A stretch of 35,672 bases of DNA, from contig CAMZED010000004.1 of NCBI GenBank assembly GCA_947305675.1, positions 1-35,672 on the forward strand, given 5' to 3'. The position numbers and the translations under genes were made by a program. This document shows positions 7,935 to 24,516 of the stretch, one piece after another. The notes beneath the pieces are model-generated. The model was not told the DNA's origin. It ran no database searches and was given only the letters and a program-made list of their open reading frames with translations. The stretch comes from an uncultured Clostridia bacterium (lineage in GTDB: Bacteria > Bacillota > Clostridia > Oscillospirales > CAG-382). How positions within the stretch are numbered: the first letter of the stretch is position 1; every line of letters starts with the position of its first letter.

Positions 7935-7957
7935 GTTATCCGCCCGGTGCGGATAAC
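7935..7957. other. Inverted repeat downstream of punA
   Basis: GTTATCCGC and GCGGATAAC form a perfect 9-bp stem with loop CCGGT. There is no good T tract on the + strand. An A tract on its left gives a T tract on the minus strand, so it may add to termination of leftward transcripts. Confidence 0.5.
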
Positions 7958-7995
7958 GTACGACAGTCGAGCTTTTCGGAAAAGCACTGTTTTTA

Positions 7996-8047
7996 AAGGG
8001 GTTACGCGGCTTTGGTGAAAGCAGCATAACCCCTTTGCGTTTTTTCT
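7996..8047. terminator. Intrinsic terminator between punA and the membrane-protein gene
   Basis: A 10-bp stem, AAAGGGGTTA paired with TAACCCCTTT, is followed by a run of six T at 8041-8046 on the + strand. On the minus strand a five-T run follows the stem, so it can serve both convergent genes. Confidence 0.85.
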
Positions 8048-8160
8048 TGTTCGGGCAATTTACGTCATTCGTGCCGTATCGGTGCGTAAATAGCCGCTTT
8101 GTCTGCGCTCTGGCAGGCAAACGCCTGTTTCAGCCGGTTGGTTTTTTGTTTTAACGGCTC

Positions 8161-16118: not shown

Positions 16119-16133
16119 TAAATAAACAGCGAA

Positions 16134-16173
16134 AAAGGGATTATGCCGAACACGAGATCGGTGTAATCCCTTT
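16134..16173. terminator. Intrinsic terminator after the metallophosphoesterase
   Basis: AAAGGGATTA pairs perfectly with TAATCCCTTT. The + strand then reads CTTTGATTG, and an A-rich stretch at the left gives T residues on the minus strand. It lies between convergent genes and resembles the stems in the repeat arrays. Confidence 0.8.
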
Positions 16174-16250
16174 CTTTGATTGTCTTTGATTTACTTTGTT
16201 AATCTTTGATTGTCTTTGATTGTCTTTGATTGTCTTTGATTAACTTTTGC
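16171..16250. repeat. 10-bp-period tandem repeat (TGTCTTTGAT)
   Basis: Eight consecutive decamers: TTTCTTTGAT, TGTCTTTGAT, TTACTTTGTT, AATCTTTGAT, then three identical TGTCTTTGAT copies and a decayed TAACTTTTGC. It starts inside the terminator's last bases and ends about 13 bp before the 3' end of the LysM-CAP gene. Confidence 0.9.
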
Positions 16251-16960: not shown

Positions 16961-16988
16961 AAAGGCACTGTTTTTTTACAGCGCCTTT
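16961..16988 (-). terminator. Intrinsic terminator of rnjA
   Basis: On the minus strand AAAGGC-GCTGT pairs with ACAGT-GCCTTT across an A-rich loop (one mismatch), followed by TTCTCGTTTGG. It lies about 40 bp past the rnjA stop, after a repeat-module head. Confidence 0.7.
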
Positions 16989-17008
16989 CCTTATCTATTC
17001 TTATAAAT

Positions 17009-17044
17009 AACTTGTGCGTATGCGGCCGATTATCCGCGGTCTCC
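17009..17044 (-). repeat. Repeat-module head overlapping the rnjA 3' end
   Basis: The minus strand carries GGAGACCGCGGATAATCGGC (17044-17025), identical over 20 nt to the murA 3' end, followed by CGCATACGCACAAGTT. The rnjA stop TAA lies inside it, so the element edge encodes the last four residues, GDRG. Confidence 0.85.
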
Positions 17045-18709
17045 GTAATCGAAAACTATCGGGATGACCATGGGCTTGCGCTTCGTCCGCTTGTTCGCGT
17101 AATCGGCAAGGTCCTCACGCAGGCGGAGTTTTATCGCAGAAACGTCGGTAATGTCTTTTGCAAGGCAGCGGATAATGCAGTTATATGCAAGTTCTTCGAG
17201 CTTGCGGATAATATCCTCGTTTTCTTTTTCATAAACAAATCCGCGCGTGGTCACCTCCGGCATGATCGAAACGGCGCCGAATTCCGGATCGATCCCCGCC
17301 GACACGACGATAACGCCGTCCTCCGCGAGTTTTTTGCGGTCGCGCAGGACGACCCCGCCGACGTCGCCGATCCCGCTGCCGTCGACCATTACCGAACCCG
17401 CCTCCACGCTTCCGGCGTGCTTTATCGTCCGGCGCGAAAGTTCGATCACTCCGCCGATCTCCGGCAGAAGGATTCTGCCGTCTTTCATTCCCAGCTCGCG
17501 CGCGAGCCCGGCGTGGGCGACAAGATGTTTATATTCCCCGTGAACCGGGATAAAAAAGTCCGGGCGGGTGAGCGTGTGCATAAGTTTCAGTTCTTCGCGG
17601 CAGGCATGCCCCGAAACATGAACGTCGTAATTGCTGTAGGTGATAACTTCAGCGCCGCGGCGAAACAGTTCGTTTATTATTTTGGTAATAAACTTTTCGT
17701 TGCCGGGGATCGCCGATGAGGAAAGCACCACCAGATCGCTGCTGCCGAGCGTGAGCTGATTGTGTTCCCCGAACGCCATACGGTAAAGCGCGCTCATAGG
17801 TTCGCCCTGGCTGCCGGTCGTAACCACCGTTATTTTCTCCGGCGGATATTTTTTAACGTCGGAAATATCGACAAGCGTTCCTTCCGGTGCGAAAAGATAC
17901 CCGAGCCTTGTCGCCGCGCTTACAAAGTTCTGCATACTTCTGCCGGTGACGGCTACCTTCCGCCCGGCTTTTACGCTGGCGTTGATTATCTGCTGAACGC
18001 GGTGGACGTTGGAAGAAAAAGTTGCAATAACGACCCGGCGAGTCTCACCGTTAAAGATCCTGTCGAAACTGACGGCGAGCGAACTTTCGCTCGGGGTGTA
18101 TCCCGGGCGTTCGGCGTTGGTGCTGTCGCAAAGCAAAAGCCTTATTCCTTTGCGTCCCAGTTCCGCCAGCCGCGCAAGATCTATCGGCTTTTCGCCCACC
18201 GGGGTGAAATCCACCTTGAAATCGCCGGTGTGAAGTATCCTTCCGCAGGGGGTGTTTATGCAGATCGCGCATGAGTCGGGCATCGAGTGGTTCACGTTGA
18301 TATATTCGCATTCAAAAGCCCCCAGCGTTACCGATTGCCCGGCGTGAATCTCGTAAAGCCTGGCATTTTTTACGTTGTGCTCGGCTAACTTGCCTTCAAT
18401 TATCCCCAGCGTAAGCCTTGTGGCGTACACCGGCACGTTGAATTTCTTTAAAAAATAGGGTACCGCGCCGATATGGTCCTCGTGACCGTGAGTGATCAGC
18501 AGTGCGCGCAGTTTTTCAACGTTCTTTTCAAGATAGCTGAAATCGGGTATGACCAGATCGACTCCGAGCATATCGTCCTCGGGGAACATCACTCCGCAAT
18601 CGACCGCGATAATATCCCCGCCGTATTCAAAGGCGGTCATATTCATTCCGATCCCGTCAACGCCTCCGAGAAAAACAATGTTTACGTTCGGTTTTTTGTT
18701 TTTGGGCAT
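17030..18709 (-). CDS. rnjA: Ribonuclease J
   Basis: This 559-residue metallo-beta-lactamase/beta-CASP nuclease acts in mRNA turnover and rRNA maturation with both endonuclease and 5'-to-3' exonuclease activity. THGHEDH at residues 73-79 is the zinc site, and HSMPDS, HTGDFKVDF, LCDSTNAERPG, TGSQGEPMSAL and the beta-CASP VHVSGHA follow in order. The C-terminal domain continues to the end. Length matches RNase J1/J2; which paralogue it is cannot be told. AAAGGA precedes the ATG. The last codons (GDRG) come from a repeat element shared with murA, so the native tail was probably different. It has a sigma-A promoter with a roughly 100-nt leader. Confidence 0.95.
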   Translation of the reverse strand: MPKNKKPNVNIVFLGGVDGIGMNMTAFEYGGDIIAVDCGVMFPEDDMLGVDLVIPDFSYLEKNVEKLRALLITHGHEDHIGAVPYFLKKFNVPVYATRLTLGIIEGKLAEHNVKNARLYEIHAGQSVTLGAFECEYINVNHSMPDSCAICINTPCGRILHTGDFKVDFTPVGEKPIDLARLAELGRKGIRLLLCDSTNAERPGYTPSESSLAVSFDRIFNGETRRVVIATFSSNVHRVQQIINASVKAGRKVAVTGRSMQNFVSAATRLGYLFAPEGTLVDISDVKKYPPEKITVVTTGSQGEPMSALYRMAFGEHNQLTLGSSDLVVLSSSAIPGNEKFITKIINELFRRGAEVITYSNYDVHVSGHACREELKLMHTLTRPDFFIPVHGEYKHLVAHAGLARELGMKDGRILLPEIGGVIELSRRTIKHAGSVEAGSVMVDGSGIGDVGGVVLRDRKKLAEDGVIVVSAGIDPEFGAVSIMPEVTTRGFVYEKENEDIIRKLEELAYNCIIRCLAKDITDVSAIKLRLREDLADYANKRTKRKPMVIPIVFDYGDRG

Positions 18710-19006: not shown

Positions 19007-20275
19007 ATGGATAAACTCTATATCTCCGGCGGCAAACCGCTCATCGGTTCCATAAATATCGGCGGAATGAAAAACGCCGCCCTGCCCATAATTTTCGCCA
19101 CCGTCCTGGTCGGTGACGTCTGTGTGCTTGAAAACCTTCCCGAGGTAAGCGACATAAACACCGCTCTGGAGATGATATCCCGTATGGGCGCAAAAGTCGA
19201 AAGGCTTGACCGCGGCACCTACCGTATCGACACGCGTGAAGTCCGCTGCGGCAGCGCTCCGCTCGATCTGGCGGGTTCAATGCGCGGCTCTTATTACGTG
19301 CTCGGCGCCGAACTCGGCAGGTTCGGCAGATCCGCCACCGGGCTTCCCGGCGGCTGCAATTTCGGCAAAAGACCGATCGACCAGCATATTAAAGGATTCG
19401 AAGCGCTCGGCGCCAAAGTGATTTGCAGCGACGACGCCGTAAGTTGTTTTGCCGAACGTCCGCTTACCGGCACTTCGGTTTATCTCGATATCGCGTCGGT
19501 CGGTGCGACGGTAAACATTATGATGGCGGCGACAAAAGCCCAGGGTATGACGGTCATCGATAACGCCGCGCGCGAACCGCACATCGTCGACCTCGCCAAC
19601 TTCCTCAACTCCTGCGGGGCGAACATCTCCGGCGCCGGGACAGAGGTCATAAAGATCCGCGGCGTTTCGGAGCTTCACGGCGGCACTTATGCCATCATCC
19701 CGGATATGATCGAGGCGGGCACTTATATGATCGCCGCCGCCGCCACAAAAAGCAAGCTGACGATAACCAACGTTATCCCCAGGCACCTCGAAGCGACCAC
19801 CGCCAAACTGATCGAAGTCGGTGTAAAAGTCGAGGAAGGCGATGATTACGTCACCGTGTCTTATGAGGGCGAGCTTAAAAAAGCGCGCGTCAAGACCGAT
19901 TTTTATCCCGGTTTCCCGACGGATATGAATCCCCAGTTCTGCGTTCTTCTCTGCCTTGCCGACGGCGAAAGCGTGCTTACCGAAAGCGTTATGGATAACC
20001 GCTTTAAATATACCGACGAACTCGCCCGTATGGGCGCAAAGATCTCCGTCCACGGGCGCGACGCGGTCGTCACCGGCGTGACGGAACTTCACTCGGCAAA
20101 CGTGCGCGCCGTCGATCTGCGCGCCGGTGCGGCAATGGTTATCGCCGCGCTTGCCGCCAAAGGCACCACCGTGATCGACGACATTTATCACATCGAGCGC
20201 GGATACGAGGATATGGTGGAGAAGCTGAGGGGCGTCGGTGCCGACATCCGGATCGTCAGGGGAGACCGCGGATAA
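19007..20275 (+). CDS. murA: UDP-N-acetylglucosamine 1-carboxyvinyltransferase
   Basis: MurA transfers enolpyruvate from PEP to UDP-GlcNAc, the first committed step of peptidoglycan synthesis. The 422-residue protein begins MDKLYISGGKPL. It has GMKNAALPIIFA near residue 22, the fosfomycin-sensitive loop PGGCNFGKRPIDQHI with catalytic Cys117, and the later TDMNPQF and ERGYEDMVEKL motifs. Start: the ATG at 19007 has AAAGGTG 9 nt upstream; the in-frame GTG at 18995 lies within that Shine-Dalgarno. Its final GDRG and stop are contributed by the repeat edge (20261-20280). Several terminators in series follow. Clostridia often carry two MurA paralogues; which one this is cannot be told. Confidence 0.95.
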   Translation: MDKLYISGGKPLIGSINIGGMKNAALPIIFATVLVGDVCVLENLPEVSDINTALEMISRMGAKVERLDRGTYRIDTREVRCGSAPLDLAGSMRGSYYVLGAELGRFGRSATGLPGGCNFGKRPIDQHIKGFEALGAKVICSDDAVSCFAERPLTGTSVYLDIASVGATVNIMMAATKAQGMTVIDNAAREPHIVDLANFLNSCGANISGAGTEVIKIRGVSELHGGTYAIIPDMIEAGTYMIAAAATKSKLTITNVIPRHLEATTAKLIEVGVKVEEGDDYVTVSYEGELKKARVKTDFYPGFPTDMNPQFCVLLCLADGESVLTESVMDNRFKYTDELARMGAKISVHGRDAVVTGVTELHSANVRAVDLRAGAAMVIAALAAKGTTVIDDIYHIERGYEDMVEKLRGVGADIRIVRGDRG

Positions 20276-20316
20276 TCGGCTGTTTACGCACAAGTTGATC
20301 AATAAAATAAATTCGG

Positions 20317-20357
20317 AAAGGGTTATACCGTACTTTCGTTCGGCGTAATCCTTTTTT
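20317..20357 (+). terminator. Array 1 terminator 1 (murA)
   Basis: AAAGGGTTATACCG pairs imperfectly with CGGCGTAATCCTTT across a loop containing ACTTTCGTT, followed by a run of T. It lies 42 bp after the murA stop. Confidence 0.85.
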
Positions 20358-20399
20358 CGTTTCCCCGATTATTATGATTTTTATAACTTGTGCTTGCAC

Positions 20400-20444
20400 G
20401 AAAAGCTCGACTGCCGTAGACCACTACGGCGACGCTCGCTTTTC
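20400..20444. repeat. Array 1 hairpin segment, copy 1
   Basis: The lower stem is GAAAAGC/GCTTTTC, then a 6/7-nt internal loop, and the upper stem is GCCGTAG/CTACGGC with loop ACCA. Confidence 0.85.
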
Positions 20445-20540
20445 CTGCAAAACATCTCGATTCTACGCGGTCTCCGCGCCGTACCGTGTTGGCGGATAAT
20501 CGGCTGTTTACGCACAAGTTGATCAATAAAATAAATTCAG

Positions 20541-20581
20541 AAAGGGTTATACCGCGCTTATGTTCGGCATAATCCTTTTTT
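20541..20581 (+). terminator. Array 1 terminator 2
   Basis: AAAGGGTTATACCG pairs with CGGCATAATCCTTT, followed by T residues. The loop differs from terminator 1 (CGCTTATGTT), and the stem has CATAA where the first has CGTAA. Confidence 0.85.
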
Positions 20582-20623
20582 CGTTTCCCCGATTATTATG
20601 TTTTTTATAACTTGTGCTTGCAC

Positions 20624-20668
20624 GAAAAGCTCGACTGCCGTAGACCACTACGGCGACGCTCGCTTTTC
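20624..20668. repeat. Array 1 hairpin segment, copy 2
   Basis: Same structure and same upper stem (GCCGTAG/CTACGGC) as copy 1. Confidence 0.85.
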
Positions 20669-20763
20669 CTGCAAAACATCTCGATTCTACGCGGTCTCCG
20701 CGCCGTACCGTGTTGGCGGATAATCGGCTGTTTACGCACAAGATATTTAAAATATAATTCAGG

Positions 20764-20803
20764 AAAGGGTTATACCGTACTTTCGTTCGGTGTAACCCTT
20801 TCA
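20764..20803. terminator. Array 1 terminator 3, bidirectional (murA / sigK)
   Basis: AAAGGGTTATACCG pairs with CGGTGTAACCCTTT. It lies between the convergent murA and sigK genes and is the only copy positioned to end sigK transcripts as well. T-rich flanks occur on the + side (CATTGTC is weak) and on the minus side. Confidence 0.75.
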
Positions 20804-21773: not shown

Positions 21774-23939
21774 ATGGAGATCAGTCTTGCAAGATCAAAG
21801 TTAAAACCGGCTTTCGCCGGGATACTCTCGGGGGCGGCGGCTTTTGTGCTGGGCACCGCTTCGATCGCCGAAGGCGTTAAGCCTTTCGGCATAAGCCTTA
21901 TATGCGCGGTCGGGAAAGAAAAACGGAAATATGTATTCGCCGGGGCGCTTCTGGCTTCGCTTACCGACAAAAACATATGGCTTTCGGCATTCTGCGCGGT
22001 TTATATATTCATTGTTCTTGCCGCAAAAGAAAAGCACGGCGGCGTGTTCATTTACACCCGCGTATTGCTTGCGCTTTCGGCGAGCGCTCTGCGCGCCGTT
22101 TATATCGCGGTGGGAGGGATCGGATCGGTCGCTTCGGTTTTTTCGCTGATCGCGGCGGTGATATCCTACCCGGCTTTTACATACGCCTTCCGGGGCAGAT
22201 ACGACCGCAAAAAAGAACTGCGCCGGGTAAGATACGAGATATCGCTTTTGGCGTTTGCGTTCGCTTTCACCGCTGCGGCCGCCCCGTTTGAACTGTTCGG
22301 CGTAAACCTCGGCATTATCCCGGCGGCGGGATTCACGCTTTGCGCCGCGCGGCGCAAAGGGTTCGCGTTCGGCGGTATATGCGGGACGGTGTGCGGCCTT
22401 GTCGCCGGAGGAGCGGCGACGGGAGCTTTGGGAGTGATGGGGATGGCTTACGGTCTGCTCGCGGGGGAGAGCGAGCCGCTTGCCGTTATCCTGGGATATA
22501 TGCTTTCGGTTTCGGGCTATTATTACCTTGCCGGAGCCGAAACCACCCCCGCGGCGGCGCTGATGCTTTTGGCTGTGACGGCGGCTTTTTATCCGCTTCG
22601 CAAAAAGATCGCTCCCGCCGAACCGGCTCCGAGCGCCGAAAAGCGCGCCATGGACCGGCGGATGTCGCGTTACGCGGCGACTTTCTCCTCGCTTTCGTCG
22701 CTGTTTTATTCGGTTTCCGACGCCGCGCGCGAACAGAGCGTGAGCGAACTTAACGCCGATATCGTTAAAACCGTCGACGAAAGATGCGGCCATTGCGCCG
22801 GCTGCGAGCTTGACAAAAGCGAAATAACCAACTTCTTCACCAGGGAAATACGCAACAACGGCGTCGTCACCTACGCAAGAATGCCTTCGCACATAACCTA
22901 TCGCTGCCCGAACGCCATGGCTCTGGCGAGATCGGTGAACGGGCTGACCGCTTTGCGCCATGCCGACGGCGAAAAAGGGCTTAAACGTATGGCGGACGAA
23001 TATTCGGCTTTCTCGGCGATACTTTCCGAGGCGGCGAAGAGCCAGGAGGAATCCCGCCGCGAGGACCGCGCCGCCGCGCGGGAGATAAAAAGCCGGCTTG
23101 CGGAGATCGGCGTGACGTGCGACGGGGTCCGCGTAAGCGGAGCGCGCCGGCGCGAGGTGACGGTTTTCGGCGTGGAGCCCGAAAAAATAAGCTGTTCGCC
23201 GGCGGATATATCGGGCGTTTTTTCGGGCGCGGCGGGTACAAAAATGTCCGACCCCGAACTTGTCCCGCACGACGGCTATACCCTTTTAAGATCCCACAGC
23301 GTTCCGGGGTTCAGAATGGAATACGCGAAGTTTTCCGAAGCCAAAAGCGGCGAGCAGGTCTGCGGCGACACGGTGAGCGTTTTTGAAAGCGACGAAAACC
23401 GCTTTGTCTGCCTTGTGTCCGACGGAATGGGCAGCGGGCGCGACGCCGCGCTTACCAGCCGCCTTTCGGCGATAATGCTTGAAAAACTGCTTTGCGTCGG
23501 CGCCGAAAAAGAAAGCGCGCTTAAACTTTTGAACAAGGCGCTGAGCGAAAAGCAGGAAGAGGTATTCGCCACCGTCGATCTGCTCGAGATCGACCGCATC
23601 ACCGGCAAGGGCGAAATAATAAAAGCCGGCGCGGCACCGAGCATACTTATACGCGGCGGAAAATCGTACAATCTCGAATCCCGCACGCCGCCCGCCGGAA
23701 TAATGAAAACCGTGATCGCCGACAAAAAGACTTTTGAGGTTCGGAAAGGCGATATGATCGTTATGATGAGCGACGGGATAATGCAGACCGGCTCTGAAAA
23801 AAAGATCCTCCCCGCCGAGGGGATCCCGCCGATGCCCTCTGCGCGGGCGCTCGCCGAAAAGATCCTGCGCGACGCGCGCGACGAGCTCGGGTGCGGGGGA
23901 GAGGACGATATGTCTGTCTGTGTAATTCGCGTCTATTAG
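21774..23939 (+). CDS. spoIIE: Stage II sporulation protein E (SpoIIE phosphatase)
   Basis: SpoIIE dephosphorylates SpoIIAA-P to release sigma-F in the forespore and takes part in polar septation. The 721-residue protein has about ten hydrophobic segments in residues 1-285, a cytoplasmic middle part with CGHCAGCEL near 340, and a C-terminal PP2C-type phosphatase (about 500-721). Metal-site residues are Asp532 (CGDTVS), SDGMGSG around 549, MMSDGI around 665 and DDMSV around 711; all are intact. AAAGGA lies 11 nt before the ATG. Control by Spo0A is suggested by the upstream 0A box. It ends in TAG 8 bp before a repeat head, and repeat array 2 fills the gap to the next gene. Confidence 0.95.
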   Translation: MEISLARSKLKPAFAGILSGAAAFVLGTASIAEGVKPFGISLICAVGKEKRKYVFAGALLASLTDKNIWLSAFCAVYIFIVLAAKEKHGGVFIYTRVLLALSASALRAVYIAVGGIGSVASVFSLIAAVISYPAFTYAFRGRYDRKKELRRVRYEISLLAFAFAFTAAAAPFELFGVNLGIIPAAGFTLCAARRKGFAFGGICGTVCGLVAGGAATGALGVMGMAYGLLAGESEPLAVILGYMLSVSGYYYLAGAETTPAAALMLLAVTAAFYPLRKKIAPAEPAPSAEKRAMDRRMSRYAATFSSLSSLFYSVSDAAREQSVSELNADIVKTVDERCGHCAGCELDKSEITNFFTREIRNNGVVTYARMPSHITYRCPNAMALARSVNGLTALRHADGEKGLKRMADEYSAFSAILSEAAKSQEESRREDRAAAREIKSRLAEIGVTCDGVRVSGARRREVTVFGVEPEKISCSPADISGVFSGAAGTKMSDPELVPHDGYTLLRSHSVPGFRMEYAKFSEAKSGEQVCGDTVSVFESDENRFVCLVSDGMGSGRDAALTSRLSAIMLEKLLCVGAEKESALKLLNKALSEKQEEVFATVDLLEIDRITGKGEIIKAGAAPSILIRGGKSYNLESRTPPAGIMKTVIADKKTFEVRKGDMIVMMSDGIMQTGSEKKILPAEGIPPMPSARALAEKILRDARDELGCGGEDDMSVCVIRVY

Positions 23940-23993
23940 AGACCGTGTATAATCGGCTGTTTACGCACAAGTTGATCAATAAAATAAATTCGG

Positions 23994-24034
23994 AAAGGGT
24001 TATTCCGTACTTTCGTTCGGTGTAATCCTTTTTT
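23994..24034 (+). terminator. Array 2 terminator 1 (spoIIE)
   Basis: AAAGGGTTATTCCG pairs with CGGTGTAATCCTTT, followed by a T run. It lies 55 bp after the spoIIE stop. Confidence 0.85.
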
Positions 24035-24076
24035 CGTTTCCCCGATTATTATAATTTATATAACTTGTGCTTGCAC

Positions 24077-24121
24077 GAAAAGCTCGACTGCTTTACGGTT
24101 GTAAAGCGACGCTCGCTTTTC
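24077..24121. repeat. Array 2 hairpin segment, copy 1 (covarying upper stem)
   Basis: The lower stem GAAAAGC/GCTTTTC is kept, but the upper stem is GCTTTAC/GTAAAGC with loop GGTT. All three changed bases on the left arm are compensated on the right. Confidence 0.88.
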
Positions 24122-24217
24122 CTGCAAAACATCTCGATTCTACGCGGTCTCTGCGCCGTACCGCGTTGGTGTATAATCGGCTGTTTACGCACAAGTTAAG
24201 CAGAAAAATAAATCAAA

Positions 24218-24256
24218 AAAGGGTTATACCGCGCTTATGTTCGGCATAATCCGTTT
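24218..24256 (+). terminator. Array 2 terminator 2
   Basis: AAAGGGTTATACCG pairs with CGGCATAATCCGTTT. A G breaks the T tract and the stem base, so this copy is weaker. Confidence 0.6.
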
Positions 24257-24300
24257 CTCGTTCCCCCGATTATTATGATTTATATAACTTTTGCTTTTCC

Positions 24301-24345
24301 GAAAACGTCGACTGCCGTAGACCTCTACGGCGACGCTCGCTTTTC
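24301..24345. repeat. Array 2 hairpin segment, copy 2
   Basis: The upper stem is GCCGTAG/CTACGGC with loop ACCT. The lower stem is partly decayed (GAAAACG against GCTTTTC). Confidence 0.8.
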
Positions 24346-24474
24346 CTGCAAAACATTTCGATTCTACACGGTCTCCGCGCCGTACCGTGTTGGCGGATAA
24401 TCGGCTGTTTACGCACAAGTTGATTAATTACAATCGGCTGTTTACGCACAAGTTAAGCAGAAAAATAAATTCGG

Positions 24475-24516
24475 AAAGGGTTATTCCGCGCTTATGTTCG
24501 GCGTAACCCTTTTTTC
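24475..24516 (+). terminator. Array 2 terminator 3
   Basis: AAAGGGTTATTCCG pairs with CGGCGTAACCCTTT, followed by six T. It is the last element before the promoter at 24555. Confidence 0.85.

Follow-up and report, generated by a model that had tools for sequence, protein, structure and literature searches.

Probable supply of the murA and rnj gene endings by a small structured repeat in an uncultured Clostridia genome

How do two unrelated genes come to end in the same 20 nucleotides? The question is raised by murA (19007-20275, forward strand) and rnj, encoding RNase J (17030-18709, reverse strand), divergent neighbours in the window analysed here (the whole stretch of 35,672 nucleotides, from a gut bacterium), whose identities are backed by curated models (TIGR01072/PF00275 and TIGR00649/PF17770, respectively). 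The 20-mer GGAGACCGCGGATAATCGGC was found exactly at 20261-20280 on the forward strand, as the end of murA, and at 17044-17025 on the reverse strand, as the end of rnj, the two copies forming an inverted pair 3.2 kb apart. Both translations terminate in GDRG, with the last four sense codons (GGA GAC CGC GGA) and the TAA stop coming from the repeat edge (20261-20275 in murA and 17044-17030 in rnj), which bears out the initial annotation in its claim that the same nucleotides are read in the same frame on opposite strands.

It had also been held that such an identity, in the same frame, is improbable by chance. As regards the sequence, this stood: shuffles gave a mean of 0.02 matches with three or fewer mismatches. 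As regards the frame, it did not, because among the three readable frames at the left end of the element only GGA GAC CGC GGA TAA stops immediately, while the others stay open for approximately 13 codons or more; surviving fusions would favour that frame, and its use by both murA and rnj is not independent evidence. Across the whole genome (1.59 Mb, 171 contigs), the murA and rnj copies were the only exact ones. Inexact copies were found at C81:6519 (two mismatches), approximately 47 nt past the stop of its gene, and, as a third match in the window, at 23938-23957 (C4:23938, three mismatches).

We consider it highly probable that a small, non-autonomous mobile element, one settling at gene 3' ends, supplies GDRG and the stop codon to both murA and rnj, and that the 20-mer is its left terminal repeat. 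Under a different account, which we regard as rather unlikely, there was a single real insertion, and the ending of one gene was transferred to the other by gene conversion or template switching between the divergent neighbours. This would fit the inverted arrangement of the pair, the CGCGGAT that both copies have where those at C81 and 23939 read CGTGTAT, and the fact that the rnj copy comprises only the left part of the element. However, the identity is limited to the 20 nucleotides and ACGCACAAGTT, with different flanks and terminators at the two sites, and the genome contains several further copies. An artefact of assembly could also be imagined for a metagenome-assembled genome fragmented into this many contigs, the more so as the repeat is often found at contig ends (at C81, and likewise in G004, G007, and G008). 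Yet murA, rnj, and both arrays of the repeat lie within one 35.7-kb stretch, and stop-abutting copies occur in many independent genomes, making such an origin extremely improbable.

Architecture, fold, and copies of the element

The 20-mer forms the left end of an element 180-276 nt long, the modules of which follow in the order A (GGAGACCGCG), B, C (ACGCACAAGTT), terminator hairpin T, C' (AACTTGTGC), hairpin E, and A' (CGCGGTCTCC). Together they fold as a Y, with A and A' as the outer stem, one arm containing a rho-independent terminator, and the other a conserved hairpin with strong covariation. In the murA copy (all on the forward strand), the left terminal repeat A (20261-20270), which codes for G-D-R and supplies the next codon's first base, and the right terminal repeat A' (20466-20475) are exact complements approximately 200 nt apart. 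Box C (20286-20296) pairs with box C' (20385-20393). Arm 1, AAAGGGTTATACC...GGCGTAATCCTTTTTTC (20317-20358), is a rho-independent terminator-like hairpin, and arm 2, or E (20394-20451), is a conserved hairpin with a near-invariant internal loop, TCGACT / GACGCTC. The predicted fold of 20258-20480 is one Y-shaped structure of -89.2 kcal/mol (z -8.6, 0/200 shuffles). Judging from the sequence, the left boundary at murA could extend 3-5 nt further upstream, because the C81 copy also has TCAGG there.

The pairings were compared across copies. Both sides have changed in 11 of the 21 pairs of the E arm (20 copies), with the internal loop almost invariant. C and C' are paired in 0.91 of cells (75 copies), compared with 0.77 or less after the left and right halves were shuffled among copies. 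The outer stem has a mean length of 6.4 versus 4.9 with shuffled partners, and it reaches at least seven pairs in 34 of 75 copies versus 9 expected, a modest test that is confounded by the relatedness of the copies. Inverted terminal repeats are thus present, with complementary A and A' that pair above shuffled controls, and the outer stems covary from copy to copy (CAGACCGA/TCGGTCTG, CAGAGCG/CGCTCTG, GGAGACCGCG/CGCGGTCTCC, and GGAACCGC/GCGGTTCTG). Among approximately 100 loci, no copy contains a gene, and no parent transposon with the same ends and an internal gene was found. Neither the window nor the element matched Rfam.

Several copies lie in the window. The gene murA is followed by an array of 2.4 units (period 224 nt; 20261-20801, forward strand), and the first A of a second array (23939-24516, forward strand) overlaps the TAG stop (23937-23939) of a SpoIIE-domain gene (21774-23939). 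The partial element 3' of rnj (16984-17044, reverse strand) has A, B, and C together with a different terminator hairpin; its left terminal repeat A occupies 17035-17044 at the gene end, and A' and the E arm are missing. A truncated copy of a second subfamily (CAGAGCGCAGACAAAGCGG...), with its E arm cut off, is found at 7957-8113 on the reverse strand. Elsewhere in the window, a terminator-like hairpin similar to arm 1 (16130-16172) is directly followed by seven tandem repeats of a 10-nt unit, TCTTTGATTG (16173-16241).

Gene tails at the repeat edge

The initial annotation further proposed that the element had replaced the native C-terminal codons of two essential-type enzymes, an idea that GDRG tails in orthologues without the repeat would contradict. 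No GDRG tail was seen among the MurA and RNase J orthologues of 24 genus genomes that were readable to their ends; a few genes were interrupted by an internal stop or ran off their contig. In the closest relative, G007 (85% identity for MurA and 76% for RNase J), the tails read ...LSDLMPTPKA and ...LLEVGK, and no repeat is present there. Homology breaks at the repeat edge in both proteins (GADIRIVR followed by GDRG versus GANIEIVSDKI in MurA, and PIVFDY followed by GDRG versus TTLFEIQL in RNase J). These comparisons support the proposed replacement, the GDRG tail being lineage-specific and beginning at the edge of the element. What was exchanged, however, is only the non-conserved tail past the family models, which stop before the repeat (at residue 415-417 of MurA and residue 553 of RNase J), and at rnj only the left part of the element is involved.

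Past the conserved GADI, MurA orthologues end in SDKI, SDDIRA, STNN, SENI, and others, and past the conserved RTKxxPM, RNase J orthologues end in FEIQL, LLEVGK, FDVRL, and others. Since the replaced residues lie beyond the family models, the GDRG endings probably represent a neutral swap of a variable tail and not damage. The cost was likely low, since these tails are hypervariable in any case and a stop codon and a terminator come with the repeat. A full element lies 3' of rnj in G018 with the native tail and its TAA retained (...FEIQL TAA G CAGAGCG), and therefore insertion beside the rnj stop need not alter the protein.

No empty murA or rnj site alignable base by base was found, and we deduce the loss of native codons at both genes from relatives that are at most 85% identical. 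Either a small deletion or recombination would be needed in both cases, and since the rnj copy has no E arm or A', it may have arisen through exchange with the nearby array, by recombination or conversion, instead of its own insertion. A further ending of this kind is seen at L239 (G006:C38:39183), where the protein terminates in ...YNYVAGRV with the TGA stop inside the repeat; its last residues (...AGRV) and stop likely come from the element edge.

Might murA and rnj instead have ended in this way natively, by chance, with the element merely abutting them and no codons replaced? Many copies do only adjoin the native stop or have 1-3 nt in common with it (L217, L240, L228, and the copy at 23939), and the RRD tail of a Zn-peptidase in G007 overlaps a copy although its orthologues end in the similar RPRD. 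For murA and rnj we nevertheless find mere abutment very improbable: their GDRG codons are repeat sequence without a counterpart in orthologues, and in murA these codons pair with A' 200 nt away. The SRRD ending of the G007 Zn-peptidase was itself not counted as a repeat-supplied tail on account of the RPRD of its orthologues. In L335, L338, and L339, the Zn-peptidase gene ends TTC AGA CCG AGA GAY and a stop (FRPRD), which resembles the CAGACCGAGA edge of the element; no element lies downstream, and the likeness is probably a coincidence.

Insertion sites, mobility, and distribution

Approximately 100 element loci were fetched for reading of their flanks, and most left ends point toward the 3' end of a gene in the same orientation. 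By script, the distance between the left end and a co-oriented stop is within -12 to +15 nt for 14 of 73 copies versus 0.5% of random positions, with the terminal-repeat boundary set by a regular expression that is accurate only to several nucleotides; in another 23 copies the stop is 13-60 nt upstream. The sites fall into two classes. In the first, the stop abuts or overlaps the left repeat (murA, rnj, the TAG at 23937-23939, rnj of G018, and genes in G003, G006, G044, and G045). In the second, the stop lies 13-60 nt upstream, with a host terminator hairpin in between and the same hairpin again after the element.

Direct repeats of at least 11 nt flank about a third of copies compared with 7 of 414 mismatched pairs, a count from which a handful of artefacts caused by overlapping flanks or arrays were discounted by eye. 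The filled site L265 (G012:C31) and the empty site L319 (G014:C28) differ by a 247-nt insert with an exact 27-nt duplication, ATACCTCTGTCGTAACGGCAGAGGTAT, which occurs once in G014, where the empty site reads ...AACAATATACCTCTGTCGTAACGGCAGAGGTATTAAATT... The duplicated 27 nt are a terminator palindrome and hold the stop codon of the upstream gene. This pair is direct evidence of mobility, for a sister copy of the murA and rnj elements. The duplicated stretch tracks the length of the hairpin, approximately 23-29 nt in clear cases, which suggests recognition of structure.

Duplicated host terminator hairpins flanking the element were also noted at L229, L230, L255, L256, L264, L267, L268, L277, L306, L307, and others, and in some of these pairs the stems are alike and the loops different. 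At L263 (G008:C84), the two flanks resemble the arms of a single terminator hairpin, with the element placed as though in the loop. A second palindromic repeat, of the AAACCCCAC...GTGGGGTGGTTT or GGGGTCCCC type, lies inside the E hairpin of the first at L013, L014, L015, and L038.

BLAST detected relatives of the element in 11 of 24 genus genomes. A wider search, with a covariance model built from E and A', showed copies in 13 of these 24 and in 19 of 63 family genomes, representing five of the 13 sampled genera. All matches fell within the host's family, with none outside it in a 245-genome sample of the order. Among named public genomes, the nearest is that of a metagenome-assembled 'Oscillospiraceae bacterium', with 78% MurA identity. 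Presence at a given gene is patchy among species, rnj being filled in G000 (the window's genome), G012, and G018 and empty in G014.

This patchiness bears on whether the copies are selfish mobile DNA at all or structured RNA elements (RNA stabilisers or small RNAs) selected at 3' ends. Strong covariation of the whole-element fold and the 3'-end position are what such RNAs would display. A transcript terminated at T would, however, lack the full Y, because T precedes E and A'; therefore the conserved outer stem more likely serves at the DNA level, in movement. Together with the exact insertion and duplication demonstrated for G012 and G014, the absence of a match to Rfam, and the patchy occurrence, this makes a selected RNA an improbable alternative.

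We therefore retain the mobile element, and a sequence of events can be proposed. The element would be one imperfect palindrome folding as a Y, with the terminal repeats as outer stem and the terminator in one arm. One array would have landed at the murA end and a partial copy at the rnj end, each removing the few last native codons and the stop, either by insertion with a small deletion or by later recombination. The murA ending would now include the repeat's own terminator besides GDRG and its stop, and the element is probably tolerated at gene ends owing to this stop codon and terminator. Host terminators may be recognised through their hairpin, and the mobilising enzyme may act in trans. 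More tentatively, the integration machinery might read the rho-independent terminator hairpin as a structure, cut its base on both sides, and duplicate the whole terminator of variable length. Endings of the murA and rnj type might then be a second landing mode, in which the element's own terminator and stop replace the native ones.

A selfish repeat could thus persist cheaply at the ends of essential genes by carrying a terminator of its own and a stop codon in one frame. Terminator insertion with whole-hairpin duplication is seen in clean form in the wider family, which could serve to examine whether mobile elements can target nucleic-acid structure rather than sequence. For annotation, it is a warning that short lineage-specific tails common to unrelated proteins can be repeat sequence.

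Comparison with known systems

The element family and its terminator-duplicating mode appear to be undescribed, as there is no Rfam match and a limited literature search found nothing on terminator-targeting repeats with hairpin-length duplications. Group IIC introns insert beside rho-independent terminators and resemble the element in this respect, but the element is shorter than 280 nt and duplicates its target, and no group II intron RNA core was detected by Rfam in the window or the element. REP/REPIN sequences are palindromic and intergenic, form hairpins with conserved unpaired bases, and are moved by RAYT, a Y1 HUH transposase. The element is like them in all these features except the last: Y1_Tnp (PF01797) was absent from 18 of 19 carriers, G000 included, in a profile search of 63 genomes (with incomplete assemblies), and REP/RAYT was rejected as a general mover. 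The analysis found no enzyme that would mobilise the element.

In Streptococcus pneumoniae, 58 annotated genes overlap BOX elements, which encode the stop codon in 36, with no strong evidence of truncation (PMC3049150). BOX elements and the present family have in common a small size, a modular build, an interspersed distribution, stable folds, and terminal repeats, and both encode stops of flanking genes (here murA, rnj, and likely L239). The Y fold with its built-in terminator arm, the different module order, and the terminator-length duplication distinguish the present family, which also has no Rfam match. The SPRITE repeats of pneumococcus are also terminator-like and enriched at the 3' ends of genes, and consist of a single 18-bp duplex and a U-rich tract (PMC3049150), whereas the present element combines two arms with an outer stem.

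The replacement put forward in the initial annotation is supported, but as a phenomenon it has a close precedent in pneumococcal BOX (PMC3049150), and with MITEAba12 as another precedent the repeat-encoded ending of a gene is a further case of something known. Less expected is the terminator-side insertion with the host hairpin on both sides. MITEAba12 fuses to a gene and supplies its stop codon, truncating it by 398 residues (PMC6382973). Like MITEs, the element is short, has inverted terminal repeats and no gene, and duplicates its target, although precise insertion with a target-site duplication was seen at the one filled and empty pair (G012/G014) and not at murA or rnj. It differs from MITEAba12 in that only non-conserved tails change and in that the 27-nt duplication of the mapped case spans a terminator hairpin.
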